Of a stretch of DNA of 39,334 nucleotides, positions 4,429 through 28,480 are shown one piece after another (the stretch's first letter is position 1; each line of letters begins with the position of its first letter). A program made the translations under genes and the position numbers. The notes under the pieces are model-generated. The model was not told where the DNA came from and did no database searches. It worked only from the letters and a program-made list of their open reading frames with translations. Origin of the DNA: Gammaproteobacteria bacterium (GTDB lineage: Bacteria > Pseudomonadota > Gammaproteobacteria > UBA6429 > Thiohalophilaceae); contig WFVC01000023.1 of assembly GCA_015491815.1 (NCBI GenBank), positions 1 through 39,334 on the forward strand, in the 5' to 3' direction.

Positions 4429-4716
4429 CTACTGGTTCTCAAAAAACACCCGATGATAATATATTTCCCGCCGAAATTCTTCACGATCCAGCGGCGCCAG
4501 TACTTCATCTATCAGTTGAGAAATGGGCGGGCGACGCATATCCGGCAGACCGGATTTTTTCCAGGGGACGATATAAAGAATTTTTGGCAGTTCCTGATTG
4601 CCGATCACTGCGGTGCCCTGCATCTCGATGCGGGTTTCCGCCTGAGTAAACGTACTTGCGGATAGAAGCAGCAGAGCCGGCAGGATTTGAGGTTTTCTAC
4701 AAGCTTGTTTAGCCAT
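4429..4716 (-). CDS. Small secreted protein of unknown family in the envelope-machine operon
   Basis: 95 residues. An N-terminal signal peptide (basic MAKQACRKPQ, hydrophobic ILPALLLLSASTF, likely cleavage after TQA) precedes about 68 mature residues. The mature part begins TRIEMQGTAVIGNQELPK and includes the segment LYIVPWKKSGLPDMRRPP and a charged, Glu/Arg-rich end. I do not recognise a domain. The gene overlaps the end of the upstream TPR lipoprotein gene by 8 bases and precedes the TolQ-like gene, so it is translated as part of the operon. It is probably a periplasmic accessory of the machine. The neat signal peptide, overlap and operon position make it a real gene despite its size. Confidence 0.8.
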   Translation of the reverse strand: MAKQACRKPQILPALLLLSASTFTQAETRIEMQGTAVIGNQELPKILYIVPWKKSGLPDMRRPPISQLIDEVLAPLDREEFRREIYYHRVFFENQ

Positions 4717-5353
4717 GAGCCTGTTCTCCTATGCGAGGGCTTAACTTGGATTGTTTGGGGATTCGGCGTTTCAACTCGACGATCCATTTACCGACTTTTT
4801 TATCGGTTTTGCCGGTGAGATGTTGATACTGTTCATATTGTGGCAATGCCTGGGCGGGTTTGTCCATGTAAATATCATACAGAATGCCAAGATTAAGCCA
4901 GGCGATGGCATAAGCGGGATCCGCATCGATGGCTTTTTTATAAGCCTGTTCCGCCTGTTTAAACTGACCGAGGTTGCGCTCAACCACGCCCAGATAATTG
5001 TAGGCGGGGGCGAGCTTTGGATTCAGGGCAACGGCCTGCTGTAAAGCCTGTTGGGCTTTTTCCCATTCACGCGCCTTGATGTGAATCAGGCCGAGGTTGG
5101 CCCAGGCGCCGGTCATTTGCGGGTAGCGCTCGATCAAGTCATGAAATTTTTCCGCCGCGCCGCGCAGGTTTTTTTTCTGCATCAGCGCCAGCGCCTGTTG
5201 AAACTCGCGGTTGATTTTGTTCTCAACCGGCTTTTTCGGTTTACCGATCTGACTGTCAGTTTGGCTTGGCGGCATATTACTGCATGCCGGCAACAAAATT
5301 ATTAGCAGCAGAATAAGAGTATTTTTATAGCGACTAGTAAAGGCTGGAGACAT
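4709..5353 (-). CDS. TPR-repeat lipoprotein
   Basis: About 214 residues from the ATG at 5353; a TTG three codons earlier (5362) is an alternative start. The lipoprotein signal is clear: TLILLLIILLPAC with the lipobox LPAC. The mature protein has a disordered start and then about three tetratricopeptide repeats with good consensus (AWANLGLIHIKAREWEKAQQ, then APAYNYLGVVERNLGQFKQAEQ, then AWLNLGILYDIYMDKPAQAL). It should sit on the periplasmic face of a membrane as a protein-protein scaffold. It overlaps the 3' end of the 940-residue TPR lipoprotein gene by about 20 bases and the following small gene by 8. The Myxococcus machine also contains TPR lipoproteins (GltE/AglT type), the most likely functional comparison, though no orthology can be shown here. 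Confidence 0.88.
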   Translation of the reverse strand: MSPAFTSRYKNTLILLLIILLPACSNMPPSQTDSQIGKPKKPVENKINREFQQALALMQKKNLRGAAEKFHDLIERYPQMTGAWANLGLIHIKAREWEKAQQALQQAVALNPKLAPAYNYLGVVERNLGQFKQAEQAYKKAIDADPAYAIAWLNLGILYDIYMDKPAQALPQYEQYQHLTGKTDKKVGKWIVELKRRIPKQSKLSPRIGEQAHG

Positions 5354-8156: not shown

Positions 8157-10072
8157 TCTTCGCCCTCTATTATCCGAAAACGATCAGAGGATAATTTGTC
8201 CAGCAAAAGCGAAATATTATATTGCGCGCGAATTTGATAATTCTTGAGTTGCTCCTGACGTTGCTGAAGTTCCGCCAGCGCCAGGGTTTTCAGATGACGC
8301 GCCTGAGCGCGAAGCAGGGCGTCAAGACGCACATTCAGATGCTTGATTTTTCGATGCCGACTTTTCAGTTGATAGGCATAGCCGCGGAAATTTTTTGGTC
8401 CGTCTTTCCAGCTGCGGGTCAGCGACTGTTCGGCCTGTCTGGCATTGCTCAGACTGGTCTTGAGCTGTTTGAGCTGTTTTTCCGCCTGCCACAGGCGTGG
8501 TGCAAAATCGGTGCTGATCTTCCAGTAGAGAATGCCGTAGTAAAGCCGGTATTTTTCCAGTTGGGTCTGGAGATCGGTATCCAGACTGTCTTCGGCCTGC
8601 AGACGATCAATTTTTTCGTGGATGGATTGCAGCAGCGCAAGCTGTTCCTGTTCATTAGTGGAAGCCAGCGCCAGCGTATTTTGCTGTTGACGGATTTTCC
8701 GCAGTTCCGCGTCCAGTTGTTTTTCTAATCGCACATGCTGTTTCAGTTTGTGCAGACGCGGATCGGTGCTGATGTGATTCAGTTTTTTCTGCCAGGCTTT
8801 TTTGCGCTCGCTGAGCATGGTTTGCAGCACCGGAATTTGCGCTTCCCAGTTGCGCAGAACATGACGGAGATAAAACAGATCGCGGTAGTTTTTATAGGCC
8901 ACCTGAAATTCATAACTGGCGAGCAGCTTGCTAAGATAAGGTAGTGATTGGGTTGAGCTGGCCTGTTTGATTTCCAGTGGGGTGATGATTTCCAGATCGC
9001 GGCTGTCGGTGCGCAGTATTTTTTCAATCTCGCCCTGTTCGACCGCATGAATAACGCGTTTCAGTCGCGCCTGTTGCTGCGTGTAAATTTTAATGGCCTG
9101 TTCGTATTCCTCCAGCGCGCGGCCCGGCGCGCCGACCGTATCGGTGGAATAGGGAATCGCTAACAGGGCTTCCTGTACTGCCGGATCTATTGCATCGCGT
9201 TTCGCCAGTTCACGCCAGGCGGAAAGCGCGCGCCGATGATCACCGGCCAGATTGTAGGCCCAGCCCAGCCCCAGCAGGGCTTTATTGGAAAAAGGGCCGT
9301 GCAGACGTATTTGTTTCAGATATTCAACCGCCGCCTTGCTGTCCTGTTGCTGGATGAAGGAAAAGCCCAATGCCAGATTGGCGCGATCTTTCAGGGCGGC
9401 GTGTTCATCATCATGGGCTTTGATGTCGCCACTGTCTTCGAGCAGATCCTGACCTTTTTCTGTTTCCCCTGTTTTTATCAGAGCGACGCCGAGGTTGAAC
9501 TGGGCGTAGTGTTTCCAGACTGAATTACTGTTGAGATCTTCCAGCACCTCAACCGCCTTTTCCGGTTTTCCCTGGTGCTGATAAATATTGGCGAGCAGGT
9601 TGAATCGCTCTTCGTTGCGAATCGGCGGCAGGGTGTCGCGTATTTTATTTAGCGCTTCACTGGCTTTTTCATATTCGCCATATTGATAATAAGACTTGCC
9701 CAGATAATACCAGGCCTGATCGCGGGTTTCGTAATCAATGTCATTTTTTAGAAGTTCAGTAAAAATACGTCGCGATTCATCGCGCAGGCCGTAACTTTGA
9801 TAAAGCCCGCCAAGCAGAATTTCCGGCATGTCGCCGTGATTTTTTATTGGCGCATATTTTCTGGCGCGCATCAGGCGGGTGATGGCGGAGAAATATTTTT
9901 CCTGATAAAAATAATACAGGGCTTCGCCATAACGCAGGTCACGAATAACTTCGTCTTCAGCGACCTCAGCCGATGCCGGGAAGCTAAATAGATTGCCCAG
10001 CAGCAGGATCAGTAGGCTGATTGATGCGATGACGGGATGTTTGGTGTGAGGAGTATTAAGGGCAATTAACAT
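8153..10072 (-). CDS. Secreted TPR / coiled-coil protein
   Basis: 639 residues. It has a signal peptide (hydrophobic stretch VIASISLLILLLGNLFSF, cleavage near PASA) but no lipobox, so it is predicted periplasmic. Residues about 45-330 contain tetratricopeptide-like repeats (YGEALYYFYQEKYFSAITRLM; AWYYLGKSYYQYGEYEKASEAL; ALLGLGWAYNLAGDHRRALSAW). Residues about 335-620 are a charged, Gln/Leu/Lys-rich helical region likely to form coiled coils (KKLNHISTDPRLHKLKQHVR; LDTDLQTQLEKYRLYYGILY). It is the second gene of the operon, 9 bases after the 196-residue gene, and overlaps the 940-residue TPR gene by 4 bases. It is probably a periplasmic structural part of the envelope machine. The precise family is unrecognised. 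Confidence 0.85.
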   Translation of the reverse strand: MLIALNTPHTKHPVIASISLLILLLGNLFSFPASAEVAEDEVIRDLRYGEALYYFYQEKYFSAITRLMRARKYAPIKNHGDMPEILLGGLYQSYGLRDESRRIFTELLKNDIDYETRDQAWYYLGKSYYQYGEYEKASEALNKIRDTLPPIRNEERFNLLANIYQHQGKPEKAVEVLEDLNSNSVWKHYAQFNLGVALIKTGETEKGQDLLEDSGDIKAHDDEHAALKDRANLALGFSFIQQQDSKAAVEYLKQIRLHGPFSNKALLGLGWAYNLAGDHRRALSAWRELAKRDAIDPAVQEALLAIPYSTDTVGAPGRALEEYEQAIKIYTQQQARLKRVIHAVEQGEIEKILRTDSRDLEIITPLEIKQASSTQSLPYLSKLLASYEFQVAYKNYRDLFYLRHVLRNWEAQIPVLQTMLSERKKAWQKKLNHISTDPRLHKLKQHVRLEKQLDAELRKIRQQQNTLALASTNEQEQLALLQSIHEKIDRLQAEDSLDTDLQTQLEKYRLYYGILYWKISTDFAPRLWQAEKQLKQLKTSLSNARQAEQSLTRSWKDGPKNFRGYAYQLKSRHRKIKHLNVRLDALLRAQARHLKTLALAELQQRQEQLKNYQIRAQYNISLLLDKLSSDRFRIIEGEE

Positions 10073-10878: not shown

Positions 10879-11907
10879 TCATTTCTGCTCGGCAGACGCC
10901 GGGGGCATGAGTCCATCTGAATAGTAAAGCCGGCCACGGGCGTCGATAACAACCGCGTCGAATTCAGGCAGACGGTTGATCAGCGCAATGCCTTTTTGCG
11001 CGCCGAGGATAAAGACGCTGGTAGAGAGCGCATCGGTGATCGTCGCCTCGGGGCCAATCACGGTGGCGCTCTGGCTGGCGCGGGCGGCGCGGCCGGTGCG
11101 GGTATTGATAATATGGTGATAGCGTATGCCGTCTCGGATGAAATAGCGTTCGTAATCGCCGGAAGTGGAAATGGCGATATCCGACAAAGGCAGCACGACC
11201 GGGCTGGTGCGCGCCTTTTCCGCCGTGGTTTTTTTCGGCGTGTCGCGGGGATGACGGATGCCGATCATCCACGGACGTCCACCCCGATCCCCGAGCAGGC
11301 GGCTGTCACCCCCGGCGCTGACCAGCGCATGCTGAACACCGCGCCGGCGCAGCAGTTCCATTGCCCTGTCAACGGCGTAGCCTTTGGCGATGCCGCCCAG
11401 ATCGATGCGCATGCCGGGGCGGGTGAAAAAGACGCTGCGGGTTTTGGGATCGAGCCGGATGGCGCGGTAATTGATAGCCGGCAGTTGTGTTTTTATTTCC
11501 TTATCTGAAGGGTGGATGCCTTTGCGGTAGTCATACAGGTAGCCGACGCTGGCGAAACTGATGTCAAATACGCCCCCGGTCAGTTCGGCGATCCGCTGCG
11601 CCCGCTGCATGAGCTGGAACAGTTCCCTGCTGATAATGACCGGTTTTTTACCGGCTTCACGGTTAATACGCGCTAACTCACTGTCCTGTTTGAAGGGACT
11701 CATCAGGGCATCGATGCGGCGCATCTCCTGCATGACGGCGGCGATGGCGGCGCGAGCCTCGGCCGGTTTTTCCGCCCACAGTTCGACCCGCACCGGCGTG
11801 CCCATGATCGCCTGTTCGTCCTCGAACCACTGGGCCATGAGCGGGAAGGCGAGCATGAACAGCACAGACAGGAGTGTCGCGCGGGGTTGAGAGAATAACG
11901 CGCTCAT
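10879..11907 (-). CDS. apbE: Periplasmic FAD:protein FMN transferase (ApbE family)
   Basis: 342 residues. ApbE enzymes transfer FMN from FAD onto Ser/Thr of periplasmic or membrane proteins, with Mg2+. Family marks: the N-terminal QAIMGTPVRVELWAE strand; IDALMSPFKQDSELARIN; FDISFASVGYLYDY; IDLGGIAKGYAVDRA (highly conserved glycine-rich segment); HALVSAGGDSRLLG; ISTSGDYERYFIRDG; HHIINTRTG; and ATITDALSTSVFILG, which holds the metal-binding TDALST motif. A signal peptide is present (LLSVLFMLAFPLMA) without a lipobox. The start overlaps the stop of the upstream START-domain gene by 4 bases. No classical target (NqrB/C, RnfD/G, FMN-bind protein) is encoded in the window. In other genomes I recall ApbE next to DUF4266/DUF3570/TlpA genes, which here lie 11 kb away on the other strand. 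Confidence 0.93.
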   Translation of the reverse strand: MSALFSQPRATLLSVLFMLAFPLMAQWFEDEQAIMGTPVRVELWAEKPAEARAAIAAVMQEMRRIDALMSPFKQDSELARINREAGKKPVIISRELFQLMQRAQRIAELTGGVFDISFASVGYLYDYRKGIHPSDKEIKTQLPAINYRAIRLDPKTRSVFFTRPGMRIDLGGIAKGYAVDRAMELLRRRGVQHALVSAGGDSRLLGDRGGRPWMIGIRHPRDTPKKTTAEKARTSPVVLPLSDIAISTSGDYERYFIRDGIRYHHIINTRTGRAARASQSATVIGPEATITDALSTSVFILGAQKGIALINRLPEFDAVVIDARGRLYYSDGLMPPASAEQK

Positions 11908-12709: not shown

Positions 12710-14347
12710 TCAGACAATGTTGTTAAAGGCCAGATATTTGTCCAGATCGCTGCCGAGGCCGTGATTGGGGAACAGGCTGGCAAAATTGCCCTGTTCGCCA
12801 TGCAGAGCCATGTAGTTGAGCACCACCATTTCCACCAGCAGATTGACGTTGTTGGCCGCCGGGCTGGAGGAGGTGACGGTGGAAGCGCCGCTGTCCATAT
12901 AGCCGATTTGCTGATGCACGGCGGTATCGCCGGCGGTGTTGCGCAGAACCGGGCGACCACCGGGGCTGTAAACCAGAAAGAAGGATGCAGCGGTGGAGCC
13001 GTTATCGCCGGTCCAGACGCCCTTGCCACCGCCATCTACTGTGTTGTCTAGTGTGCCGTTACTAAATACGGAACCATCACTGAACACATACAGCATCAGC
13101 GGCTGACCGACAGCAGCGGCATATTCCAGACAGGCGCCCATGCACTGGCCGGCGCGGAAATCCCGATCTTCACCGGCAGAGCGGTTGCCGGTATGGTAGT
13201 CGAAGCCACCCATCTGAATGGTGCCGGCGCCGGCAAAGCCATTGATTACCAGTTTCATGACCGAGGCGGTTTTCTGAAATTCGGTTTGGTCGCGCCGCAT
13301 GTTTCTCTTCGTGTTCTTTATGGGAGAAGAGTCTGTGTCTATGTAGCTAAAGTCGGGATTTAAATCATCAAAGATATCTTTAATGTTGGCGTCACCGACA
13401 CCATTATCATCTAATGGGCTGGGGTTGAGAATGTTGGGATTGCCGTAGCGATCCACCAGTCCGGCGCTTTTCACATAGGCGCATTCAATCTTGTCCTTGA
13501 TGGCGGCATCGGTGCTCAGGCTGGTGCTGACCTTATCCAGTTTTTTCCGGCTCAGGCGGGTGACTGATTCCATCACTTTGACCGCATCGCTATTGCTCAT
13601 CTGACCGACCAGATTGCCGGTATCGACCATGCCGGTCACATCGCTGGGCCGGTCGACCTTGGTTGGACGGGCTTCGACATCAACCATGGACGGCGGCGCG
13701 ACTGAATTGCCGCCGGATTCGGAATTGCGTGAGCCGATCAGGTCCAGCAACTCGCCGCGCGCGCCGGCCTTGTAAATGCCATACATGGGGTTATGCGGAT
13801 TGTTGGCGGTGTCATTGCCGGAGCGGGCCGGGATGACGGCGCCATTGGTATTGGCCAGCGTGCCGGCGCTGGCGCGCGCCTGAATGCCGCGTAAAAAGGC
13901 GCTGTCCGAATGAAAGGCCAGTCCCATGTCGGTATTGATAAAATTGCCCTGACTGGCCGAGGGCAGCATGTCGCCGGGCAGGCCGAGTTTGCTGTAACCG
14001 GCGGTGGAAAGAAAATCCAGTTGTCCGCCGCGTCCGCCGACCAGCACGTTGGAGCCGGAAATATTGGCGCCACCGGCCAGATCAAAACAGATGAAGGGGA
14101 CTTTGCCCGCGCCGGCTGCGGTAATGCCGCAGGCGGTTTGCAGAGCCTGCATGTCACTGGCCAGTGCCGCATTGGCGACCCCGGGACGGGCAAACAGACT
14201 CAGCAGCGGGCTGCTGCCGAGCACCAGTCCGGAACCAGCGAGAAAGCCCTGACCGAGAAAATCACGGCGGCTGACCGGGCGTTTGTGATCCCGGTGATAA
14301 AAAGGACCGTCATTATTTGTATTTGTGTTTCTGGATTTTTTGGCCAT
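12710..14347 (-). CDS. Tat-exported DUF1501-like protein
   Basis: 545 residues. The N-terminus has a twin-arginine signal, VSRRDFLGQGFLAGSGLVLG (Arg27-Arg28), so it is exported folded. The body has the features of the DUF1501 family, relatives of the sulfatase/alkaline phosphatase fold: FICFDLAGGANISGSNVLVG near the start, the MGGFDYHTGNRSAGEDRDF segment, and LMLYVFSDGSVFSNG near the end. Catalytic activity is unproven for this family. It is the third gene of a leftward operon, 12 bases after the LamG/cytochrome lipoprotein, with GAGGA before its ATG. DUF1501 proteins in planctomycetes and proteobacteria are usually encoded with c-type cytochrome-containing partners, and that is the case here. 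The substrate is unknown. Confidence 0.82.
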   Translation of the reverse strand: MAKKSRNTNTNNDGPFYHRDHKRPVSRRDFLGQGFLAGSGLVLGSSPLLSLFARPGVANAALASDMQALQTACGITAAGAGKVPFICFDLAGGANISGSNVLVGGRGGQLDFLSTAGYSKLGLPGDMLPSASQGNFINTDMGLAFHSDSAFLRGIQARASAGTLANTNGAVIPARSGNDTANNPHNPMYGIYKAGARGELLDLIGSRNSESGGNSVAPPSMVDVEARPTKVDRPSDVTGMVDTGNLVGQMSNSDAVKVMESVTRLSRKKLDKVSTSLSTDAAIKDKIECAYVKSAGLVDRYGNPNILNPSPLDDNGVGDANIKDIFDDLNPDFSYIDTDSSPIKNTKRNMRRDQTEFQKTASVMKLVINGFAGAGTIQMGGFDYHTGNRSAGEDRDFRAGQCMGACLEYAAAVGQPLMLYVFSDGSVFSNGTLDNTVDGGGKGVWTGDNGSTAASFFLVYSPGGRPVLRNTAGDTAVHQQIGYMDSGASTVTSSSPAANNVNLLVEMVVLNYMALHGEQGNFASLFPNHGLGSDLDKYLAFNNIV

Positions 14348-14359
14348 TGAGTACGTCCT

Positions 14360-16912
14360 CTATTGAATCAACATGGCGGCGCTGCCGAGTACGGCGGTGC
14401 ACATGCCCTTGACGATGATGCGGGTGCGGGCGGCGTCACCGCAATTACTGCTGCAGCCGTTGGTCAGGCGCTCGTAGAGACCATCGCCGATGCCGTCGCT
14501 GTCGCCGTCTGTATCACTGCTCAGTTCGGTGCGTATTTCGTTATAGCTCGGCGCAGTCGCGAGATTCGTGCTGATCATCCTGTTGTACAGGCTGGTCGCC
14601 AGCGCATCGATGGTGGCGGACTTGTTGGCGAAGGCGCTGTCCACGTTGGCGTTAAAATCGAAGCCGTTACCGAAGAAGGCGCTGCGCAGGGCGCTGTCTT
14701 CAACCAGTGAACTGCAGTAGTCGAAGGACAACTGGGTAATCGCGACCTGATGGGCGGAGACGAAGCCTTCGATATTTTCCACCGAAGGCAGTTGTTGTTT
14801 GACCGTACTGAAGGTTGAACTGTCGTCATCGGTCTGGGCGTTGACGCCGGTGACTTCCGCCATCGTATTGTTTATTTCCTCAAAGGTGCGCAGGCCGATA
14901 TCCGAGGCCGGATCCGGCGTCGGAATGGCGGCCGGGCTGTAGCTGCCGCCACGGCTCATGGCGTTGGTGTTGCCGCCAATGATGTCGAAGGTGAGGAAAA
15001 ACTCATCGCTGTCCGCGCCTTTTTCCAGCGGGAAAATGGTGCCCATGGGCGAGAGCAACTGGCCGTTCTCGGTGTAGGCGGCGGCCGTGAGCGTGGCGTC
15101 CACATTCACCCAGGCCTGTCCCACCTCGGCTTCAGTGCCGTTCATGCCCAGACGAATGCCCTTGATCTGAATATTGTCGGGGCGGTCGTCGCCGAGGGTG
15201 ACGTAGGTCGGTTTGGCGAACATGTAGCTGTAATCATCGAAGCGGGACATCTCGAACATAATATAACTGTCAGGGACATCGACAAGATGGCTGATGTTGA
15301 ACAGCATGTAGAGTTTCTGGCCGACGCCGGCGTCGAAGTTCTGCTGAATCTGCGCCTGGGTCAGGGCGCGGTTATGAATGGCCACCATGCGGATGCGGCC
15401 CTGCCACTGCTGATCGCCGGAGGCTTCATTGCCGAGAATAAAGGCATAGCTGTCGTCCCAGTCTTCAAGGCTGGCGCCGCTGTCGGGATCGGCATCGCCG
15501 GTGTACTCGGCGTTTACATAGATGCGCCGGCCGACCCGGGAGCTGTAGGTGACGACTACGTGTTGCAGGGTCGCCTGCAGGCGTTCGTCATCATCATTGG
15601 TGGAAAGATCCGGGCTGCCGTTGAGATCAGAGTTGGCGTTGCGGTTGAGATAGTTGTAGTTATACAGGGTCTGCCCGAGGGTGAAGTTGCGCGCGCTGTT
15701 GCCGGCGGAGTAACTGATGATGCGCGCCGGGCCTTCCTGAGTGACATTGGCGGGCACCAGCCAGGCTTCGATCGTATATTCGCCGGTGGCGCGGATCAGA
15801 TCATGCAGTTTTTTACTGGCGCTGGTTTTGCCCTGCGCCTTGCCGCTGACGATTTCGATGCCGTAATTACTCAACCAGTTGATTTCACCGGAGAGACTCA
15901 GGTTCAGAGCAGGTTCGACGCCGCTGGTGTCATAGGCGATGGTGTCGGCGCCGATATTCTGGAATTCATACAGGGCGATGATATTGGATTCATGCCGCTG
16001 GCCGCCGCTGGCGACCAGACCGTGTTCCATGCGCAGGGCGCGGCTGGGCACCAGATCGCTGTCCACCGGCGTCGGGGTAATGGGCGAGGCGTAATTGCTG
16101 ATCGCGGTTTCCAGTTCAGAGGCGTTGCTGCTGCAACTGCTCCAGCAGTTGTGGAATTCGTCACGCAGGCGAATAACCAGACGCGAGTTGGACGGGTTGT
16201 CCAGATCGATTTTGCTTTTCGCCGCTTCCAGCGCCAGATCGATATCGCTGTTGGCGAAAAACGGCGCCGTGGGCGTGCTCGCGGATTCGGTGTGACAGGC
16301 GTTGCAACGCTGGCTCAGGATGCTGTGAATACTGCTGAACAGGGCGCTGTCGGCGGGGAAGGTTTTGCTGCTGCCGGGTTCCAGTTCGTTGGGAACCGGA
16401 GCCTTGAGTTCGATCTTGCGCGGCGCGTCGCTGATTCCGCCAATCCAGTTGTTGATATAGGCGACGATGGTGTCGGCGCAGACCTGAGGATTCGGATCCC
16501 AGCAGTTATGATCGCCGGCGACCTTGGTGACCAGACGCGAGGACGAGGGATCATCCAGATTGATGTAGGGGATGCCATTGACGTTGACGCCCTGCGCTTC
16601 GCGGAAAGCCAGATTGACATCGTCCGTACGCGCAAATGTCGGGGTCTGGCCGATGCTCTGGTTATGGCAGGCGCCGCAGCGATTCTCGCCGTTGAGTCCG
16701 TTCAGGCCATCCCATACCGTGAGCCGGAATGACTGGGTATCCGCCGTCGCGGGTTCCGGTCCGGTGTATTCGGTGGAGGCGACCGTCAGGTTCGGCGCCG
16801 ATTCGGTTTCCGCGCCGCCGCCGCAGGCGGACAGTAACGCCGCGCTCAGCAGCAACAGGCCGGGTTTGAGATTTTTTTTCATACTGAGAGAAATCGCGTG
16901 TTTGATGGTCAT
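14360..16912 (-). CDS. Lipoprotein with two cytochrome c-like haem modules and a LamG domain
   Basis: 850 residues from the ATG at 16912 (GGGAGA six bases upstream); an internal ATG at 16882 would give the shorter leader MKKNLKPGLLLLSAALLSAC. The lipobox is LSAC (Cys30). Residues about 58-160 and 187-285 are two copies of one module: a CxxCH haem site (CGACH at 79-83; CNACH at 203-207), a Leu/Ile-Asp-Asn/Asp-Pro-Ser-x-SRLV segment, and a terminal HNCW motif. Residues about 300-530 form a LamG/concanavalin-like domain (HDLIRATGEYTIEAWLVPAN; WQGRIRMVAIHNRALTQAQI). The remaining third is unrecognised. It starts 2 bases after the stop of the cytochrome-like gene. It is expected at the outer membrane, perhaps binding a polymer or a partner through LamG while the haems carry electrons. 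Confidence 0.85.
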   Translation of the reverse strand: MTIKHAISLSMKKNLKPGLLLLSAALLSACGGGAETESAPNLTVASTEYTGPEPATADTQSFRLTVWDGLNGLNGENRCGACHNQSIGQTPTFARTDDVNLAFREAQGVNVNGIPYINLDDPSSSRLVTKVAGDHNCWDPNPQVCADTIVAYINNWIGGISDAPRKIELKAPVPNELEPGSSKTFPADSALFSSIHSILSQRCNACHTESASTPTAPFFANSDIDLALEAAKSKIDLDNPSNSRLVIRLRDEFHNCWSSCSSNASELETAISNYASPITPTPVDSDLVPSRALRMEHGLVASGGQRHESNIIALYEFQNIGADTIAYDTSGVEPALNLSLSGEINWLSNYGIEIVSGKAQGKTSASKKLHDLIRATGEYTIEAWLVPANVTQEGPARIISYSAGNSARNFTLGQTLYNYNYLNRNANSDLNGSPDLSTNDDDERLQATLQHVVVTYSSRVGRRIYVNAEYTGDADPDSGASLEDWDDSYAFILGNEASGDQQWQGRIRMVAIHNRALTQAQIQQNFDAGVGQKLYMLFNISHLVDVPDSYIMFEMSRFDDYSYMFAKPTYVTLGDDRPDNIQIKGIRLGMNGTEAEVGQAWVNVDATLTAAAYTENGQLLSPMGTIFPLEKGADSDEFFLTFDIIGGNTNAMSRGGSYSPAAIPTPDPASDIGLRTFEEINNTMAEVTGVNAQTDDDSSTFSTVKQQLPSVENIEGFVSAHQVAITQLSFDYCSSLVEDSALRSAFFGNGFDFNANVDSAFANKSATIDALATSLYNRMISTNLATAPSYNEIRTELSSDTDGDSDGIGDGLYERLTNGCSSNCGDAARTRIIVKGMCTAVLGSAAMLIQ

Positions 16913-16914
16913 GT

Positions 16915-18123
16915 TCAGTCTCCCATGCAGTAGGAAACAGCATCGGCAAATACGCTTTTCAGGCGATAGCCGCTGTTCTTGAAATTGCTGGTCAGACTGC
17001 TGATTTGCGCGCCGCTGGGTTCACGCAGGCAGACCGCGCGGAAAACTTTCTTGACCTGACAACTGGCGAAGGCTTCGGTGTGCGCCAGTTCCTGTCCCAT
17101 CGATTTGGCGCCGTTGCCGCTGCCGGGCAGGGCCGCATCCCAGCCGAGTACGGAGTTGGGGCCTTCGCGCCAGTAGTTGTCCCAGCGATCATCGGGGGTG
17201 ACGTAACCATAAGGAAAGACCGTGGCGTTTTGCAGGAACTTGGGCTGTACCCGGCTGCCGGTTTCCGGATCGTTGGTTTCGTTGTATTCGAGCGCACCGG
17301 TTTCGACATTATCGGTGTAGGTGAAATCATAATAGGCATAGGCCTGCATCATGGGATCCATGCCGGCATGACAGCCGCTGCAGGCGTTGATGTAGATGCG
17401 GCTGTCGCCGCCGGGACTGCGGCTGGCGTCCTGACGAATGCGATCGGTGGCGCGGGTGTTGTCCTTGATTTGCTCCATGTCGGCGCACAGGTGATTGAGC
17501 AGGGTGAAGCGGAACATGGCGCGGTTGGTGCCATCGACGAAAAAGGCGCGGGCGGCGGCGCGGGTGGTGATCACCCCGGCGGTAGCGTCAGCAGGCAGGC
17601 CGGTCACTGCGGACTGTTCTTTTTCCATCAGAACCGCGTCATCGCTGAGATCCAGTCCCTGGGTTTCCATATCAATATAGTGCTGGTTGCTGCTGTTTGA
17701 ATAGGCCGCGAGGCTGGCGTTGTTTTCGTCACCGGTGTAGATAATGTCGCCATAAAGTATTTCACGAAAATCTTTATCGTCACGAATCATGCCGATGACG
17801 GTGGCGGTGTAGTCATTCAAGGGCGCGAAGACGGTTTGCTCTTCATTGGTCCAGGGGGTGATGAAATTTTTCAGGGTGACGTTGTAGAAATTACGGTTGG
17901 CCATGGCGCGGTTGGCGGCGGCGGCGACATCGTTGTTATTGATATCGGTTTCCATGAGTCCCAGCACCGCATCGGTCGGCGGGACGCCGGCGAGGCGATC
18001 ATGAATGCGGCGCGCCTGTTCGCGGGCGCCGGCCTGCAGGCTGTCAATCTGGGCAAAACATAACAGCGTCACAACGGCGAGCAGCGAGAGGCTGTTATAG
18101 TGTCTTTTTTTCTTATCAATCAT
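16915..18123 (-). CDS. Secreted CxxCH protein resembling DUF1588/DUF1585-type planctomycete cytochromes
   Basis: 402 residues when started at the ATG at 18123, giving the signal peptide MIDKKKRHYNSLSLLAVVTL with cleavage near SLQA. The frame stays open to 18258 but that extension is not signal-like. A single haem motif CSGCH (Cys248) sits in the context INACSGCHAGMDPMMQAYAYYDF, which resembles the 'C-x-x-CH-x-x-x-DP-x-GFAxE-x-FD' pattern of DUF1588 proteins. The preceding RFTLLNHLCADMEQI corresponds to their 'RGVLNxLC' segment. Four further cysteines lie elsewhere, two near the C-terminus (ASCQVKKVFRAVC). It is the first gene of the leftward operon, reading away from the hydrazine-synthase-alpha-like gene. 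The family relationship is inferred from motif resemblance only. Confidence 0.75.
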   Translation of the reverse strand: MIDKKKRHYNSLSLLAVVTLLCFAQIDSLQAGAREQARRIHDRLAGVPPTDAVLGLMETDINNNDVAAAANRAMANRNFYNVTLKNFITPWTNEEQTVFAPLNDYTATVIGMIRDDKDFREILYGDIIYTGDENNASLAAYSNSSNQHYIDMETQGLDLSDDAVLMEKEQSAVTGLPADATAGVITTRAAARAFFVDGTNRAMFRFTLLNHLCADMEQIKDNTRATDRIRQDASRSPGGDSRIYINACSGCHAGMDPMMQAYAYYDFTYTDNVETGALEYNETNDPETGSRVQPKFLQNATVFPYGYVTPDDRWDNYWREGPNSVLGWDAALPGSGNGAKSMGQELAHTEAFASCQVKKVFRAVCLREPSGAQISSLTSNFKNSGYRLKSVFADAVSYCMGD

Positions 18124-18336
18124 TTCATCTGACCCTGTTTGTTCACAAGTCTGGAACCTGTCCATAATACTACTGATAAATACTTGGACATTTCGTGACC
18201 ATTGCCACAGAACGGAAAAAGCATTCCGGGAGATAATCCAAAGCGTGTGCCGGTTCAAAAAACAAATGCGCAGAATGAACTGTAATCAGGTTGTTGCCTG
18301 AACCGGCAGAATGTTTGAGATGGATGCAGAAACCCT
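18124..18336. promoter_or_regulatory. Divergent control region with a perfect 9-bp inverted repeat
   Basis: The 213 bases between the two divergent cytochrome genes should hold both promoters. Within it GCCGGTTCA (18249-18257) is matched exactly by TGAACCGGC (18299-18307), and a smaller CAGG/CCTG hairpin lies at 18287-18300 just inside the right arm. The arms are 41 bases apart (about five helical turns centre to centre), as for a looping dimeric operator, but no regulator is encoded nearby. The 879-residue gene starts 29 bases to the right. No convincing -35/-10 pair was found. Confidence 0.4.
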
Positions 18337-20976
18337 ATGAATAAAGTAATAGACCTTTCCTCCCGCGCACAACAGCGTGTTGTTAAAACGGGCTTGTTGT
18401 TGTGCGCGTTGATGCTGTTGCAGGCCTGCGGGGGCGGCGAAGGCGATACCGGGGAGGCCGTTGATCCTATTATTCAGGATTCGGGCATCGCCTATGTGAA
18501 ACGGCCGATTCCGGTTGATGAGGTCACCGGCGAACAGCTTGACGATGATGCGCGCGATCCTCAGCCTTATCGCGCCGGGGGCGACTTATATTATCGCGTG
18601 CGGGCGTTGCCGAGCGCGCTGGAAACGAATATTACCGGTGAGATTACCGGTGGCGTGGGGGATGTGAAAAATGTACAGGTCTCCTATGACGGGACAAAGC
18701 TGCTGTTCGCTCTGCGCCTCGCCGATATTCCTGAAGATGAACTGGAAGCAGATGAAAACCAGCCGACCTGGAATATATGGGAATATGACATCACGAAAAA
18801 ATCTCTGCGGCGAATTATTTCATCTGATCTTCGCGCCGAGAGCGGCGAGGATGTGTCGCCGGTTTACCTGCCCGATGGCCGCATTTTATTTTCATCGACT
18901 CGCCAGCAACGCACCCGCGCTATTTTGCTGGATGAAAATAAATCCCAGTTTGTATTGCAGACCGAAGATGGTTCCGGGCCGGTGTTCTCCCTGCATGTGA
19001 TGAATGCCGATGGTACGCAAATTGAGCAACTCACCTTTAATCGCAGCAATGATCTGGATCCCTTTGTTCTGCAAAGCGGTGAAATTGTGTTTAGTCGCTG
19101 GGATAACGTGCGGGGCCGGGATCGTATCAGCCTCTATAAAATGAATGCTGATGGCAGCAACATGCAGCAATACTATGGCGCGCACAGTAACGATACCGGC
19201 ACCGACAATACCACCGTACAATTTCTGCAAACCCGGGAAATGCCGGACGGGCGCATTATGGCGCTGTTAAGGCCGTTTACCGGCACCTATTCCGGCAGCG
19301 ATATTGTGATGATCGATGCGGCAGCCTATATCGACGTGGGTCAGCGAATCGCCGGACGTTCGGCGGTGCAGAGCGTGGCTCAGTTATCGGCTTCGCCGGC
19401 GAACGTGCGCAACGATACGGAAATCTCGCCGGGCGGACGCTACCGTTCTATTTATCCGCTCTGGGATGGCACCAACCGTTTTTTGATCAGCTGGAGCTCC
19501 TGTCGATTGCAGCAGGCGGATGAGCGCATTGTTCCCTGTACTGCTGAGAATCTGGCGGACGCCAGCTTGCAGGAAGCCCCGCCGTTGTACGCCCTGTATG
19601 TGTATGATCTTGACAAACAAACCCAGACCCCGATCTTTGCGCCGCAGGAAGGGGTTATTTTTTCCGATGTGGTGGCCATCAATGAACGCCCCTTGCCGAC
19701 AATATACCGCGCCGCAGAGAATCCGGATTTTGATCAGGATCTGGCGAATCAGGGCGCCGGCATTCTGCATATCCGCAGCGTCTATGATCTGGATGGTGAA
19801 TTTAACAGCCTGGACGCGGATCCCGCGATCACCTCGATTACGCAAATGGCATCCTCGGCCACGCCCTGGAGCGCGCGCCCGGCGCGTTTCCTGCGGGTGC
19901 TGAAGGACGCTGCGGTGCCCGAAGGCGTGCCCGGCGTCGTCTTTGGCCGGGTAGAGGAACAAGTGATGCGCGAGATCGTGGCCTATGCGCCCATTGAGCC
20001 GGACGGCTCGGTCAAGGTGCGGGTGCCGGCGGACGTGCCGCTGATGATCAGCATTCTGGACGAGAATGGCCGCCGCATCAGTTCACCCCATTTCAACTGG
20101 ATTCAGGTTAGCGCCGGCGAGACCCTGACCTGCAACGGCTGCCATGATCACAGTAGCGGCAAACCGCATGGCCGTGCGGACGCCCGCGCGCCGCTGGTCA
20201 GCGGCGAGACCATGGCTACGCGCCGTAACCGGGTTGATCCTTCGGCGATGAATTCAGGTGTGGATCTGGTCTTCAATGACTTCTGGTATGGCGTGGACAG
20301 CGACTTCAGTTATCGTTATGCGGATCTGGACACCCCCGCCCCGGTCGCCCCCGAATGCCTGACAGACTGGAATAATTCCTGCCGTATCGTAGTGAATTAT
20401 GCGACCCATATTCATCCGCTGTGGAGCGTCTCACGCGAGGTGATCGATCCCAATGACGGCGTCACTGTACTGCGTGACGATCGTTGCACATTCTGTCATA
20501 GTCCGGTTGACCCGGCGGATGGTTCGGCGCGGGTGCCTGCCGCCCAGCTTGATTTGAGTGATGGCGATTCACCCAATCCGCGCCAACTGGAATCCTACCG
20601 GGAGCTGTTTTATGGCGATCGGCAACTGGAAGTGGTGGACGGCGTGCTGCAGGTGCGCCGGGTGCGGCGTGAAGACGCCAATGGCGACCCGATTCTGGAT
20701 GAAGACGGCAATGAGATTTTTGACACCTTCGGCGTCTCGGTCGCCATGTTCGCGCCATCCTATACCGCCAGAGGCAGTTATTTTATCGAGAAAATGACCG
20801 AAACCGAACTGGATGCCGGGCGTCGACTAAAAGCGGATGATGGAACCGAGATTTATTTCAACGGCGGAACTTTCGTCGATCATCGTGGGATGTTGAGCGC
20901 GGCGGAATTACGTTTGATTTCCGAGTGGCTTGATATTGGCGCGCAGTATTATAATAACAGTTTTGATGCGCCCTGA
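18337..20976 (+). CDS. Dihaem beta-propeller lipoprotein resembling the hydrazine synthase alpha subunit
   Basis: 879 residues with a lipobox LQAC (CALMLLQACGGGEG). Residues about 60-540 show TolB/PD40-type propeller blades (NIWEYDITKKSLRRI; VYLPDGRILFSSTRQQ; SLHVMNADGTQIEQLTFN; REMPDGRIMALLRPF). A middle domain then runs GSVKVRVPADVPLMISILDE to SAGETLTCNGCHDHSSGKP, with a haem site at C599-H603. A C-terminal domain has a second haem site, CTFCH at 717-721, followed by 150 residues. Propeller, middle haem and C-terminal haem is the order in anammox hydrazine synthase alpha. However, the Tyr that I recall ligating the middle haem four residues after the CxxCH His is Ser607 here, and no beta/gamma subunit is encoded. 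Hydrazine synthesis is therefore not supported; it is better called a relative of unknown activity. It diverges from the CxxCH/LamG/DUF1501 operon. Confidence 0.82.
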   Translation: MNKVIDLSSRAQQRVVKTGLLLCALMLLQACGGGEGDTGEAVDPIIQDSGIAYVKRPIPVDEVTGEQLDDDARDPQPYRAGGDLYYRVRALPSALETNITGEITGGVGDVKNVQVSYDGTKLLFALRLADIPEDELEADENQPTWNIWEYDITKKSLRRIISSDLRAESGEDVSPVYLPDGRILFSSTRQQRTRAILLDENKSQFVLQTEDGSGPVFSLHVMNADGTQIEQLTFNRSNDLDPFVLQSGEIVFSRWDNVRGRDRISLYKMNADGSNMQQYYGAHSNDTGTDNTTVQFLQTREMPDGRIMALLRPFTGTYSGSDIVMIDAAAYIDVGQRIAGRSAVQSVAQLSASPANVRNDTEISPGGRYRSIYPLWDGTNRFLISWSSCRLQQADERIVPCTAENLADASLQEAPPLYALYVYDLDKQTQTPIFAPQEGVIFSDVVAINERPLPTIYRAAENPDFDQDLANQGAGILHIRSVYDLDGEFNSLDADPAITSITQMASSATPWSARPARFLRVLKDAAVPEGVPGVVFGRVEEQVMREIVAYAPIEPDGSVKVRVPADVPLMISILDENGRRISSPHFNWIQVSAGETLTCNGCHDHSSGKPHGRADARAPLVSGETMATRRNRVDPSAMNSGVDLVFNDFWYGVDSDFSYRYADLDTPAPVAPECLTDWNNSCRIVVNYATHIHPLWSVSREVIDPNDGVTVLRDDRCTFCHSPVDPADGSARVPAAQLDLSDGDSPNPRQLESYRELFYGDRQLEVVDGVLQVRRVRREDANGDPILDEDGNEIFDTFGVSVAMFAPSYTARGSYFIEKMTETELDAGRRLKADDGTEIYFNGGTFVDHRGMLSAAELRLISEWLDIGAQYYNNSFDAP

Positions 20977-21294: not shown

Positions 21295-21393
21295 TTGGGC
21301 GTTCATTGACGGATATAATAATCAACCTTAGACAGACTGATAGTTGGGCGCGTATTTATTTTCCTGATGTCAGTTTATCTGTACCGGAATTTC

Positions 21394-22134
21394 ATGTTTT
21401 ATCAGGGACTCGTATTTTTTTGCAGCCTGTTGCTGCTGGTAAGCTCCGCACAGGCGGATGATGACTACCCGCGTGTACAGGTTGCCGATCCCTATCTTGA
21501 AATGCAGACCGGCGCCGGCAGCGGCTATCCGGTTTTTTATGTGATCGAACGGGGAGAATGGGTTCAGATTCTCAAACGTAAAACGGAGTGGTTCAAAGTG
21601 CGATCCGAACGCGGCAAGGAAGGCTGGGTCAGGCGTGAGCAAATGGAGCAAACGTTGACGCCGACGGGAAGCAAACTGGATCTTCCTGATGTGGCTGAAG
21701 GTGATTTTGTTCGTCGGCGTTGGGAAATGGGCATCAGTAGCGGAGATTTCAGCGGCGCGACAATTATCAGCGCCTGGTCCGGTTATGGTTTTACCCGTAA
21801 TTTGTCGATGGAGCTTTCGGTTTCGAATGTGCTGGGCAGTTATTCCAGCAGTCTTATGGGCAATGTCGGGCTGCTCGCCCATCCTTTTCCCGAATGGCGG
21901 TTCTCTCCCTATTTTACCCTGGGTACGGGTATCATTCAGACGACGCCGAAGGCGTCATTGGTGCAGACGCGGGATCGCACGAACAATACCACGCATGTGG
22001 GCGTGGGTTTGCGGGTTTATCTGGCCAAACGCTTTATTGTGCGTTTTGATTACAAGAGTCTCGTTATTTTCAGCAGCCAGGATGACAATCAGGAAATTAA
22101 TGTATGGCAAATTGGTTTTGCAGCGTTTTATTAA
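21394..22134 (+). CDS. SH3-domain outer-membrane beta-barrel protein
   Basis: About 246 residues from the ATG at 21394, which has GGAA at a good distance and gives the signal peptide MFYQGLVFFCSLLLLVSSAQ; the frame is open from an ATG at 21367. The mature protein starts with a bacterial SH3 domain (VADPYLEMQTGAGSGYPVFY, VIERGEWVQILKRKTEWFKV, then GWVRREQME). Alternating beta strands from about residue 105 to a C-terminal aromatic (GFAAFY) are typical of small outer-membrane barrels. It overlaps the next barrel gene by 31 bases. Such SH3+barrel proteins could anchor in the outer membrane while holding peptidoglycan or a periplasmic partner. A link to the ExbBD/TPR machine on the left is inferred from distance and content only. 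It contains the string SGATIIS, discussed under findings. Confidence 0.82.
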   Translation: MFYQGLVFFCSLLLLVSSAQADDDYPRVQVADPYLEMQTGAGSGYPVFYVIERGEWVQILKRKTEWFKVRSERGKEGWVRREQMEQTLTPTGSKLDLPDVAEGDFVRRRWEMGISSGDFSGATIISAWSGYGFTRNLSMELSVSNVLGSYSSSLMGNVGLLAHPFPEWRFSPYFTLGTGIIQTTPKASLVQTRDRTNNTTHVGVGLRVYLAKRFIVRFDYKSLVIFSSQDDNQEINVWQIGFAAFY

Positions 22135-22778
22135 AATCGGGGCTTTTGTTGCTGGTGTTTGTCAGTAGCTTTGCGCTGTCGCCGCGCGGAGCTGAAGCCT
22201 CGGAAGAGATGCTGAGTGAGGAAAAGCCTGTAATTGAGCCGGAAGTCTACCGGCGCGAAATCGATGCATCGGAAATTGATACGGAAAACTTTGAACTCAC
22301 CGCATTTACCGGCCTGATGAGCGTCGAGGATTTTGGAGTTAATAATATTATTGGCGCAAGGCTGGCCTTTCATATTACCGAAGGCCTGTTTTTTGAAGCC
22401 GGTATTGGGCGCACCACGACGACAAAAACCAGCTATGAAAGGCTGAGTGGTTCGGTGGAACTGCTAACCGATGATCAGCGGGTGCTCAGTTATTACAACC
22501 TGTCGGTGGGATATAATCTGTTGCCGGGCGAAGCTTTTTTAACCCGGAATCTGGCCTTTAATACCGCTTTTTATTTGATTGGCGGTATTGGCAATACCAC
22601 CTTTGCCGGTGATGAACGCTATACCATTAATTATGGTTTTGGTTATCGTTTTCTGGCGACCGACTGGCTGGCGTTGCATGCGGATGTTCGCAACCATGTG
22701 TTTGATATGGAATTGCTGGGTGAGAAGGCGACGACGAACAATATCGAGATGAGTTTGGGTTTGTCGATTTTTTTCTGA
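22104..22778 (+). CDS. Outer-membrane beta-barrel protein
   Basis: 224 residues. The signal peptide (SGLLLLVFVSSFALSPRGAEA) is followed by a short acidic stretch (SEEMLSEEKPVIEPEVYRRE). Then come amphipathic strands with the pattern of the 'outer membrane beta-barrel domain' family: FELTAFTGLMSVEDFGVNNI, GARLAFHITEGLFFEAGIGR, SYYNLSVGYNLLPGEAFL, INYGFGYRFLATDWLALHAD and the terminal EMSLGLSIFF. The C-terminal Phe fits recognition by the BAM machinery. The gene begins inside the 3' end of the SH3-barrel gene and is followed, 33 bases later, by the thioredoxin gene, so the group is an operon. In other proteobacteria such barrels are found beside AgmX/ExbD/TPR gene sets; this is recalled knowledge, not shown here. 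Confidence 0.82.
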   Translation: MANWFCSVLLKSGLLLLVFVSSFALSPRGAEASEEMLSEEKPVIEPEVYRREIDASEIDTENFELTAFTGLMSVEDFGVNNIIGARLAFHITEGLFFEAGIGRTTTTKTSYERLSGSVELLTDDQRVLSYYNLSVGYNLLPGEAFLTRNLAFNTAFYLIGGIGNTTFAGDERYTINYGFGYRFLATDWLALHADVRNHVFDMELLGEKATTNNIEMSLGLSIFF

Positions 22779-22811
22779 GTGAGGTTTAACGGTATTAACG
22801 AGGTGAAGATA

Positions 22812-23318
22812 ATGAACAGGACTGGTTTTTTTAATCTTAAACAGGCTGTATTAGCGTTTTGCGTTTCACTGTTTTTACTGACGGGGGTGCAGGCTGAAGC
22901 GGAAATGGCGCCGAATTTCACCCTGAAAAGTCGCAGCGGAAAAAATATCAAACTCAGCGAGTATCGTGGACAGGTGGTGCTGGTTAATTTCTGGGCCTCC
23001 TGGTGTGGACCCTGCCGGCAGGAAATGCCGATACTGGAGAAACTGTATAAAAAATACAGCTCATTGGGTTTTGTCGTCCTTGGTGTGAACGTTGATGACA
23101 AGCCTGCTCAGGCGGAGTCGTTGCTAAAATTAATCGATGTCAGTTTTCCGGTATTGTTCGATACGGATAAGAAAATCAGCGAGAAGTACAAAGTCACTGC
23201 CATGCCCAGTAGTTTCTTCGTTGATCGCGACGGCAAGATTCGCAGTGAGCACAAAGGTTATCTACCTGAATATGAACTGCTGTATAAAAATGAAATCAAG
23301 AAGTTGATCCGTGAATAA
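22812..23318 (+). CDS. TlpA/ResA-family periplasmic thioredoxin
   Basis: 168 residues from the ATG at 22812 (AGGTGAAG upstream; a GTG at 22779 in the same frame is less likely). A signal peptide or anchor (AVLAFCVSLFLLTGVQAEA) precedes the AhpC/TSA-like thioredoxin fold. FTLKSRSGKNIKLSEYRGQV leads to the redox site WASWCGPCRQEMP, then GVNVDDKPAQA, and the cis-Pro loop TAMPSSFFVDRDG. TlpA-type proteins reduce periplasmic disulfides, for instance in cytochrome c maturation or copper-site assembly. The stop overlaps the start of the DUF4266 gene by 8 bases, indicating coupling. A likely client is the neighbouring Cys-Gly-Cys lipoprotein or the CxxCH proteins of the divergent block; that is inference. 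Confidence 0.93.
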   Translation: MNRTGFFNLKQAVLAFCVSLFLLTGVQAEAEMAPNFTLKSRSGKNIKLSEYRGQVVLVNFWASWCGPCRQEMPILEKLYKKYSSLGFVVLGVNVDDKPAQAESLLKLIDVSFPVLFDTDKKISEKYKVTAMPSSFFVDRDGKIRSEHKGYLPEYELLYKNEIKKLIRE

Positions 23319-23541
23319 GTTTGTAAAAATTATTTTGTTGTCAAGCGGCCCGTTATTGCTGGGCGCCTGCAGTGCGCCTACGCCCTGGGTTAAACCTTAT
23401 GAGCGCGCAAGGCTGGCGGATCCGATTATGAGCTTTAGCCGGGATCCGGTTTCCAGCGCCTATACCAATCATGTTTATCAGGCGCGTGAAGGCGCGCGTG
23501 GCGCCGAAAATGGTCAGGGTGGCGGCTGTGGTTGCAACTAA
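23311..23541 (+). CDS. DUF4266 mini-lipoprotein ending in Gly-Cys-Gly-Cys-Asn
   Basis: 76 residues. A lipoprotein signal (IILLSSGPLLLGACSAP, lipobox LGAC) leaves only about 57 mature residues. The mature part has the DUF4266 pattern: WVKPYERARLADPIMSF, a His-x-Tyr-x-x-Arg-Glu-Gly-Ala-Arg-Gly segment (HVYQAREGARG), and the glycine-rich tail GQGGGCGCN. The paired cysteines at the extreme C-terminus could bind a metal or form a redox pair. The gene lies between the TlpA-type thioredoxin (8-base overlap) and the DUF3570 barrel (15-base gap), the usual company of this family as I recall it. Function unknown. Confidence 0.9.
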   Translation: MNKFVKIILLSSGPLLLGACSAPTPWVKPYERARLADPIMSFSRDPVSSAYTNHVYQAREGARGAENGQGGGCGCN

Positions 23542-23556
23542 AATTGATGTTTAATC

Positions 23557-24711
23557 ATGATCCCGTCTGAAATAAAACACTACCCGCAGTTTATTTTCCT
23601 GCTATTGGGCGGCCTCTTGTTATCGCAAACGTTGATGGCGGCGGTTCTGCCTGTTGATCGCGCCGATGCGCTGTTTCATTCCTATGATGGTGGTGGCGTG
23701 CAGGTGACCGGGCCGTCCATTCTTGTGCGCAAGAGTATCGGCAAGAGTGTTTCCGCGTCGGCCAATTATTATGTTGATGCGATTACCAGCGCCTCGATCG
23801 ATGTGGTGACCACGGCCAGCGCCTATGAGGAAGAGCGCACCGAGACCAGTGTCGGCATGGATTATTTGCATGCCGAGACCATCATGGGGCTGAGTTACAC
23901 CCGCAGTAGTGAAAACGATTACGAGGCCAGAACCATTGCCTTTAATCTCAGCCAGGAAATGTTCGGGAACATGATGACGGTAAGCATGGGCTATGCGCAG
24001 GGCAATGATGTGGTTGGCAAAACCGGCGATCCCCGATTTTCCGAAGACGTTAATCGCCAACAGTATCGGGTGGGGCTGTCGCAGATCCTGACGAAAAATC
24101 TGTTGCTCGATATGGGTTTTGAAACGGTGACCGATGAAGGTTATCTCAACAATCCCTATCGCTCGGTGCGTTATCTCGATAGCAGTAGCGCCAAAGGCTA
24201 CAGCTATGAACCGGAGAATTATCCCCGGACGCGCACCAGCAACGCGGCGGCGATTAGACTTTTATATCATCTGCCAATCCGGGCTTCGATACATGGCGAG
24301 TATCGCCTGTTTGATGATAGCTGGGGAATCACCGCCAACCATGTGCAAGTCGGCTATACCCATGCGTTCAGGGATAACTGGATCTTTGATATCCGCTACC
24401 GGGTTTATACGCAGACAAAGGCGGATTTTTATGGGGACCTTTTCCCGTTCAGTCAGTCGCAGAACTTCTATGGCCGGGACAAGGAAATCAGCACCTTTGA
24501 CAGTCAGACTATCGGCATTGGCGTCAGCTACGATTTTGTGCATAACTGGCATGCGATTGATCGCGCCAGTCTGAACATAAAATATGATTACATCCTGTTT
24601 GACTACAAGGACTTTAGAGATTTACGCGATAGCAGCAGTCCGGTCGGGGATGAGCCGCTGTATGGTTTTTCGGCCAATGTGTTGCAGTTGTACTTTTCAC
24701 TTTGGTACTAA
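23557..24711 (+). CDS. DUF3570 outer-membrane beta-barrel protein
   Basis: 384 residues. A signal peptide (FIFLLLGGLLLSQTLMAAVL) precedes a barrel with the DUF3570 pattern: ALFHSYDGGGVQVTGPSILV, SVSASANYYVDAITSASIDV, the ERTETSVGMDY strand, a run of long amphipathic strands (YRVGLSQILTKNLLLDMGFE; HGEYRLFDDSWGITANHVQV), the KADFY segment and the C-terminal LQLYFSLWY. Length and ending are normal for the family. It ends the plus-strand operon SH3-barrel, barrel, TlpA, DUF4266, DUF3570. A barrel, a Cys-tailed lipoprotein and a thioredoxin suggest assembly or export of something needing reduced cysteines; no substrate is known to me. Confidence 0.9.
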   Translation: MIPSEIKHYPQFIFLLLGGLLLSQTLMAAVLPVDRADALFHSYDGGGVQVTGPSILVRKSIGKSVSASANYYVDAITSASIDVVTTASAYEEERTETSVGMDYLHAETIMGLSYTRSSENDYEARTIAFNLSQEMFGNMMTVSMGYAQGNDVVGKTGDPRFSEDVNRQQYRVGLSQILTKNLLLDMGFETVTDEGYLNNPYRSVRYLDSSSAKGYSYEPENYPRTRTSNAAAIRLLYHLPIRASIHGEYRLFDDSWGITANHVQVGYTHAFRDNWIFDIRYRVYTQTKADFYGDLFPFSQSQNFYGRDKEISTFDSQTIGIGVSYDFVHNWHAIDRASLNIKYDYILFDYKDFRDLRDSSSPVGDEPLYGFSANVLQLYFSLWY

Positions 24712-27028: not shown

Positions 27029-27186
27029 ATAGAACAACACACAGAGCGTTAAGGAACCTGTTAAAACAATAGTTCAGTTCCGATAGAAAGCTCGGGCAGG
27101 GATCACATTTCATCCTTTTGGGAGCAGGGTTTCGGTGATTGAGTTCACCATTTGGAGACTAAATCTTTGGGGCGGACAGCTCCAGT

Positions 27187-28395: not shown

Positions 28396-28480
28396 AGCCC
28401 GTATATCGCCGGGTTCTTTTCCGTTTATAACGGAGCACAGAAGGCCGCGTTCACAAATATATAATTTCCGGGACAATTAC

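Follow-up and report, generated by a model that had tools for sequence, protein, structure and literature searches.

The window is an entire 39-kb contig (39,334 nucleotides) from a draft genome of a gammaproteobacterium. Its four exported genes form the surface end of a larger envelope gene set that is conserved in Gammaproteobacteria. They encode a lipoprotein resembling the alpha subunit of hydrazine synthase (HZS) and, divergently, a trio: the haem protein P447, a LamG haem protein and a DUF1501-like protein. A sequence-only reading had placed the four genes correctly, with the same coordinates and strands, and had treated them as a unit. As a whole system the four-gene block is rejected: the flanking genes are equally conserved, and the conserved unit also includes two outer-membrane (OM) barrels, TlpA, DUF4266 and DUF3570 genes, often ApbE, and an Agl/Glt-type core. 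The linkage of core, redox genes and trio is well supported. It is read here, tentatively and with a probability of roughly 0.45, as one envelope system, in which an OM electron-transfer complex would be docked on a proton-driven Glt-type machine and act at the surface. The features of the set are as follows.

1719..2651, minus strand: GltG-like TonB-type transducer; AgmX/PglI C-terminal domain, 73 bits against a cut-off of 40
2654..3157, minus strand: ExbD/TolR-like protein (AglQ/S-like); PF02472, E 3e-18
3169..3669, minus strand: ExbD/TolR-like protein (AglQ/S-like); PF02472, E 3.5e-13
3666..4307, minus strand: ExbB/TolQ-like motor protein (AglR-like); PF01618, E 7e-29
4429..4716, minus strand: p95, small exported core protein; in relatives its gene keeps its place between those of the GltE-like protein and ExbB
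4709..5362, minus strand: TPR217, TPR lipoprotein of 217 aa, putatively GltE-like; GltE model NF033758, E 1e-10, below its cut-off
5334..8156, minus strand: TPR940, TPR lipoprotein of 940 aa, putatively GltD-like; TPR models
8153..10072, minus strand: TPR639, TPR protein of 639 aa, putatively GltC-like by size and position; TPR models, order kept (Glt sizes from PMC3169522)
10082..10705, minus strand: p207, exported protein without a family; opens the Glt-type core in relatives
10879..11907, minus strand: ApbE, FAD:protein FMN transferase; PF02424, E 1e-82
12710..14347, minus strand: Tat-exported, divergent DUF1501-like protein of 545 aa with a twin-arginine signal and without a haem motif; assigned by hhalign only
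14360..16912, minus strand: dihaem lipoprotein of 850 aa with a LamG (Laminin_G_3) domain, E 1.4e-20, and two CxxCH sites
16915..18126, minus strand: P447, Sec-exported monohaem protein of 403 aa, distantly PSD2/DUF1585-like (PF07624 in the family; start taken from relatives)
18127..18336, no strand: divergent intergenic region of about 210 bp, from the sequence and the corrected P447 start
18337..20976, plus strand: HZS-alpha-like dihaem lipoprotein of 879 aa; Pfam, Foldseek, lipobox
21367..22134, plus strand: OMP255, OM beta-barrel of 255 aa with an SH3 domain; OMP_b-brl and SH3_3; adjoins the HZS-like gene in 34 of 36 loci
22104..22778, plus strand: OMP224, OM beta-barrel of 224 aa, TIGR04565 (OMP_myx_plus family), 166 bits against a cut-off of 60
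22779..23318, plus strand: TlpA/ResA-like thioredoxin of 179 aa, GTG start uncertain; AhpC-TSA, E 2e-32, and ResA model
23311..23541, plus strand: DUF4266 lipoprotein of 76 aa with a C-terminal CGC; PF14086, E 2e-22
23557..24711, plus strand: DUF3570 protein of 384 aa, candidate ApbE substrate; PF12094, E 1.5e-35

Conservation and variation of the gene set

Co-occurrence was counted in an even draw of 274 Gammaproteobacteria genomes. HZS-like proteins were found in 39 genomes and P447 in 33, with both in 31 (Fisher p 4e-31), and TPR940 was found in 63 genomes, among them 38 of the 39 with an HZS-like protein (Fisher p 1.5e-28); these p-values assume independent genomes, an assumption that relatedness breaks. 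The co-occurrence check that the sequence-only reading had proposed was thus passed, with 31 of 33 P447-type genomes also carrying the HZS-like protein. The neighbourhoods of the homologues in this draw gave 36 HZS-like loci, whose 20-kb edges leave some neighbours uncounted; they contained OMP255 (34), OMP224 (33), DUF3570 (33), DUF4266 (32), TlpA (31), p207 (25), TPR639 (24), each member of the trio (23), TPR940 (20) and ApbE (17). Among named genomes, 35 complete 22-kb neighbourhoods show, almost without change, the order DUF1501-LamG-P447 and then, divergently, HZS-OMP255-OMP224-TlpA-DUF4266-DUF3570; being the closest relatives, they form a biased set. The genes are carried by, among others, Candidatus Thiodiazotropha, tubeworm symbionts, Aliiglaciecola, Aliikangiella, Porticoccus and Pseudomaricurvus. 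No paper tying these modules together was found in the literature.

In a tree built from 78 TPR940 proteins, the label for HZS linkage requires 12 changes, compared with a mean of 23.5 for shuffled labels, and none of 500 shuffles was as low. HZS-linked cores cluster, though not as one clade, and the linkage is therefore non-random, yet it arose, was lost or was exchanged on several occasions. Genome G048 (locus L158) was counted as linked by assumption, because its HZS fragment sits on another contig.

Parts of the set also occur apart. The core is present without HZS in 25 of the 63 core-bearing genomes and therefore does not need the redox part. Loci L177-L196 hold Glt-type core clusters in which the HZS module is missing; at L179 the core lies beside OMP255, OMP224, TlpA and DUF3570, but without HZS. 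The trio was found together and in the same order in all eight loci that lack an adjoining HZS gene. Where the HZS-like protein has two CxxCH sites, the trio is in the genome in 27 of 27 cases; for forms with three sites it is in the genome in 2 of 8 cases and adjacent in 0 of 9 loci (p 2e-5), as if the haem parts were interchangeable. In loci L056, L057 and L059-L065 the third CxxCH is borne by a C-terminal extension, and no trio is adjacent. In genome G035 the place of the HZS gene, with the trio on one side and OMP255 on the other, is taken by the gene of a lipoprotein of 168 residues whose CSRSGCH motif is haem-like (L270:9290-9796). Together with the pattern of three-haem forms and trio, this replacement suggests that a haem carrier is required here more than HZS chemistry is. 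At L066 (G034:C1:1998599-2000179) the HZS-like gene is in separate pieces and other right-arm and core markers are missing, with the trio intact; the locus is probably decayed.

Other genes of the window were considered as parts of the set and rejected. A START-domain gene (11904-12539) adjoins ApbE in the window, is not kept there in relatives, and was found in 0 of 36 and 0 of 80 loci. The OMP gene at 25088-25795 and the gene at 25865-27040 fared likewise (OMP235 in 1 of 80 loci; M48-like in 1 of 36 and 0 of 80). Further along lie a FabA-like and FabB-like (ketoacyl synthase) pair of ordinary fatty acid genes (28367-30344) and ordinary regulatory and housekeeping genes (31356-35002), namely a response regulator with GGDEF, an HDOD protein and MazG.

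The four exported proteins

Five CxxCH sites in three of the four proteins, claimed earlier, were confirmed (ORF numbering): CNGCH 599 and CTFCH 717 in the HZS-like protein, CGACH 79 and CNACH 203 in the LamG protein, and CSGCH 293 in the 447-residue ORF. An alignment of 33 sequences shows no variation at either HZS-like site, two sites are present in 22 of 23 LamG proteins, and one is present in 22 of 23 447-type ORFs, the odd match being a 33-residue fragment. The five sites are beyond chance, since they are kept across relatives.

The P447 ORF opens at TTG 18258 (447 residues), and ATG 18126 gives 403 aa. The TTG start is probably wrong, as relatives and a predicted signal peptide favour the ATG. 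With the corrected start, the divergent gap measures about 210 bp rather than 78. A promoter scan of 18127..18336 returned a single weak sigma-70-like match, not above chance. A scan of a viral collection returned no relatives, and against a viral fold library there were only weak matches, of propeller type.

The HZS-alpha-like protein consists of a TolB-like propeller, an HZS_alpha middle domain carrying CNGCH 599, and a C-terminal haem domain with CTFCH 717 and an invariant His849; near the N-terminus, Cys31 is invariant in a lipobox-like LQAC. Pfam HZS_alpha was matched at residues 543-604 (E 7e-13), and by 33 of 33 members of the family. HZS-alpha (5c2v) was the sole return of a profile search of the PDB (E 1.3e-14). 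An AlphaFold model built from 56 sequences (pLDDT 84, pTM 0.83) has Kuenenia HZS-alpha (5c2v_A) as its best Foldseek match, over 941 columns and the whole model length (E 5.2e-28, TM 0.53/0.59), with TolB propellers far behind at about 1e-11. The propeller, middle-haem, C-terminal-haem order proposed from the sequence is thereby borne out, and the structural comparison suggested with it comes out positive, middle domain included, because Foldseek ranks HZS-alpha first over the whole length. Joint function of the four proteins at the outer membrane, also proposed earlier, is well supported, since the families co-occur, their order is kept and the model matches HZS-alpha end to end.

By fold the protein is related to HZS-alpha, but it is no hydrazine synthase. 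Tyr591 is the ligand of the middle haem (alpha-I) in HZS (PMC12607021) and lies four residues past the CxxCH histidine (spacing taken from the numbers His587/Tyr591). A tyrosine at this position was found in none of the 48 relatives that were read, and hydrazine-synthase-like chemistry is not supported. Tyr591 has also been lost in other non-anammox HZS-alpha homologues, and HZS-alpha-like proteins are common outside anammox, with over 600 structure hits (PMC12758564). The score against NF052339, the curated model of true HZS-alpha, was 59.7 bits against a cut-off of 800. As the sequence-only reading had stated, no beta or gamma subunit is encoded among the window genes scanned with profile models. 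Hydrazine synthase activity was rejected on these grounds. At the C-terminal haem the likeness is retained: CxxCH is kept, and the invariant His849 aligns with the second histidine of that region in HZS-alpha. The protein also differs from Kuenenia HZS-alpha in being a lipoprotein and, in the trio-linked form, in an invariant His611 past the middle haem.

Within the trio, PF07624 (PSD2/DUF1585) was matched by 15 of 21 P447 family members (best E 1.5e-6), and Laminin_G_3 by all 24 members of the LamG family. Profile searches of the PDB with the 447-type and DUF1501-like families returned nothing significant. Plain Pfam membership of the DUF1501-like protein was rejected: none of 23 scanned family members gave a direct Pfam match, and PF07394 (DUF1501) reached its cut-off neither in these members nor in the genome. 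The kinship signalled by the earlier name holds at the profile level, as a distant one: hhalign aligned the family with the proteins of 25 DUF1501-search loci over full length (386 columns, probability 93.8, E 2.8e-8 for a single comparison), against 0 for unrelated controls. The model of the protein gave weak sulfatase/alkaline-phosphatase structure matches (best E 4e-3). Among 398 genomes of the phylum it has 8 carriers, all within the same class. A Tat-exported DUF1501-like protein beside PSD2-like and LamG haem proteins recalls the DUF1501 and planctomycete-type cytochrome (PSCyt/PSD) systems, from which this trio differs in that its DUF1501-like member lies below Pfam detection and belongs to a narrow family. 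A literature search joining hydrazine synthase to DUF1501 found no paper.

Redox genes and the Agl/Glt-type core

ApbE, DUF3570, DUF4266 and a thioredoxin are known to occur together as a flavinylation set; in Chlorobium, DUF3570 was demonstrated to be flavinylated (PMC8238504). All four are present here. The window DUF3570 protein has two [ST]xA[ST] sites, TSAS and TTAS, where [ST]GA[ST] is reported; SGAS or TGAS occurs in some relatives. Its flavinylation is therefore only a plausible prediction. Unlike the published clusters, this set is joined to an HZS-alpha-like protein, OM barrels, the trio and a Glt-type core; the main text of PMC8238504 makes no mention of hydrazine synthase, DUF1501 or ExbB. 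CcmF and DsbD are encoded in the genome.

The Agl/Glt core complex was found in Gammaproteobacteria, without known function, by Luciano et al. in 2011 (PMC3169522). Judged by its predicted proteins, the left cluster of the window matches this complex. The order in relatives is p207, TPR639, TPR940, TPR217, p95, ExbB, ExbD, ExbD, GltG-like, and the AglR-, AglQ- and AglS-like motor proteins are represented by a MotA_ExbB gene with two adjacent ExbD genes, also in the same order in relatives. The GltG model gave E 2e-20 for the 1719..2651 protein, under its cut-off of 650. The GltD-, GltE- and GltC-like assignments are putative and are based on size, domains and order. The clustering of ExbB, two ExbD, a GltG-like protein and TPR proteins is shared with the Agl/Glt-Nfs machines of Myxococcus and with the gammaproteobacterial core, as described in the available parts of PMC3169522 and PMC3858216; an OMP_myx_plus-type OM barrel is a further common feature. 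In those same parts, the Agl/Glt machines are described without a haem/flavin/thiol redox module or the trio, both of which are joined to the core here.

Function of the gene set

In the preferred reading of one envelope system, the electron path and its coupling to the motor are inferred from family roles. Electrons would pass from DsbD to TlpA, to DUF4266 and to a flavinylated DUF3570; the c-haems of the HZS-alpha-like lipoprotein would receive them next, followed by the trio's haem proteins. The latter, with the LamG and phosphatase-like proteins, would handle a surface substrate, which the proton-driven core may move or assemble; the HZS-alpha fold would serve as a haem scaffold, not as a hydrazine-making site. 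This reading is favoured by the recurrence of core, two OM barrels, TlpA/DUF4266/DUF3570/ApbE, HZS-alpha-like protein and trio in conserved order across many Gammaproteobacteria. The clustering of HZS-linked cores, the cohesion of the trio away from HZS, the seeming interchange of haem parts, the CcmF and DsbD genes of the genome and the known flavinylation set count for it too. Counted against it are the TSAS/TTAS sites, the presence of ApbE within 20 kb in only 17 of 36 loci, the 25 of 63 genomes with a core and no HZS, and the lack of a single HZS clade in the TPR940 tree. A stronger version, in which one form of the ancestral gammaproteobacterial Agl/Glt core powers or carries a trans-envelope haem/thiol/flavin electron-transfer complex ending at the surface, is doubtful; if true, this would be a previously undescribed kind of redox machine coupled to a motor.

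Redox-assisted surface assembly is unlikely, though several features would suit it. Agl-Nfs moves a carbohydrate polymer during spore coat assembly, and the core was proposed to be a basal transport machine (PMC3858216); a similar core could move or assemble a polymer here, while the haem, flavin and thiol proteins oxidise, reduce or crosslink it or its proteins. A LamG domain and a phosphatase/sulfatase-like protein fit a glycan partner, and TlpA and the CGC of DUF4266 fit thiol chemistry, but the conserved genes include none recognised as acting in polysaccharide synthesis or export. We know of no case of such polymer maturation chemistry in these haem families. The core and the haem/flavin module could also be independent, neighbours by shared expression or chance only, as the 25 genomes with a core and no HZS, the trio sited elsewhere and the one core that has barrels, TlpA and DUF3570 yet lacks HZS would allow. 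That independence is improbable against the core TPR protein in 38 of 39 HZS genomes, an order kept over divergent taxa and the clustering of HZS-linked labels on the TPR940 tree.

Energised acquisition of a metal such as iron, with flavin and haem proteins reducing it at the surface and an ExbB/ExbD/TonB-type motor driving uptake through the barrels, is more improbable again. ExbB/ExbD and TonB-type domains are present, and ferrous iron transporters accompany DUF3570 in 25 clusters (PMC8238504); against this, neither a TonB-dependent receptor nor an iron transporter occurs among the genes scanned, and the barrels are small, of the OMP_myx_plus or SH3-barrel type. An anammox-like role of the large protein, in forming N-N bonds or in handling hydroxylamine, is very improbable. 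The full-length fold match and the HZS_alpha domain would agree with such a nitrogen enzyme, but the missing tyrosine, the low score against true HZS-alpha and the lack of beta and gamma genes among the window genes scanned speak against it, as do conserved partners that are not nitrogen enzymes.

The gammaproteobacterial Agl/Glt core has been known without an assigned function (PMC3169522, PMC3858216), the role of DUF3570 flavinylation clusters is not settled (PMC8238504), and HZS-alpha homologues outside anammox are without a confirmed function (PMC12758564). All three share one conserved neighbourhood, so that one set of gene deletions could address them together. Since the gene set joins the core to haem, thiol and probably flavin carriers, it offers a testable idea of the role of the core. 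If the redox reading is true, an envelope motor driven by protons cooperates with an electron chain in the outer membrane, which would be new.
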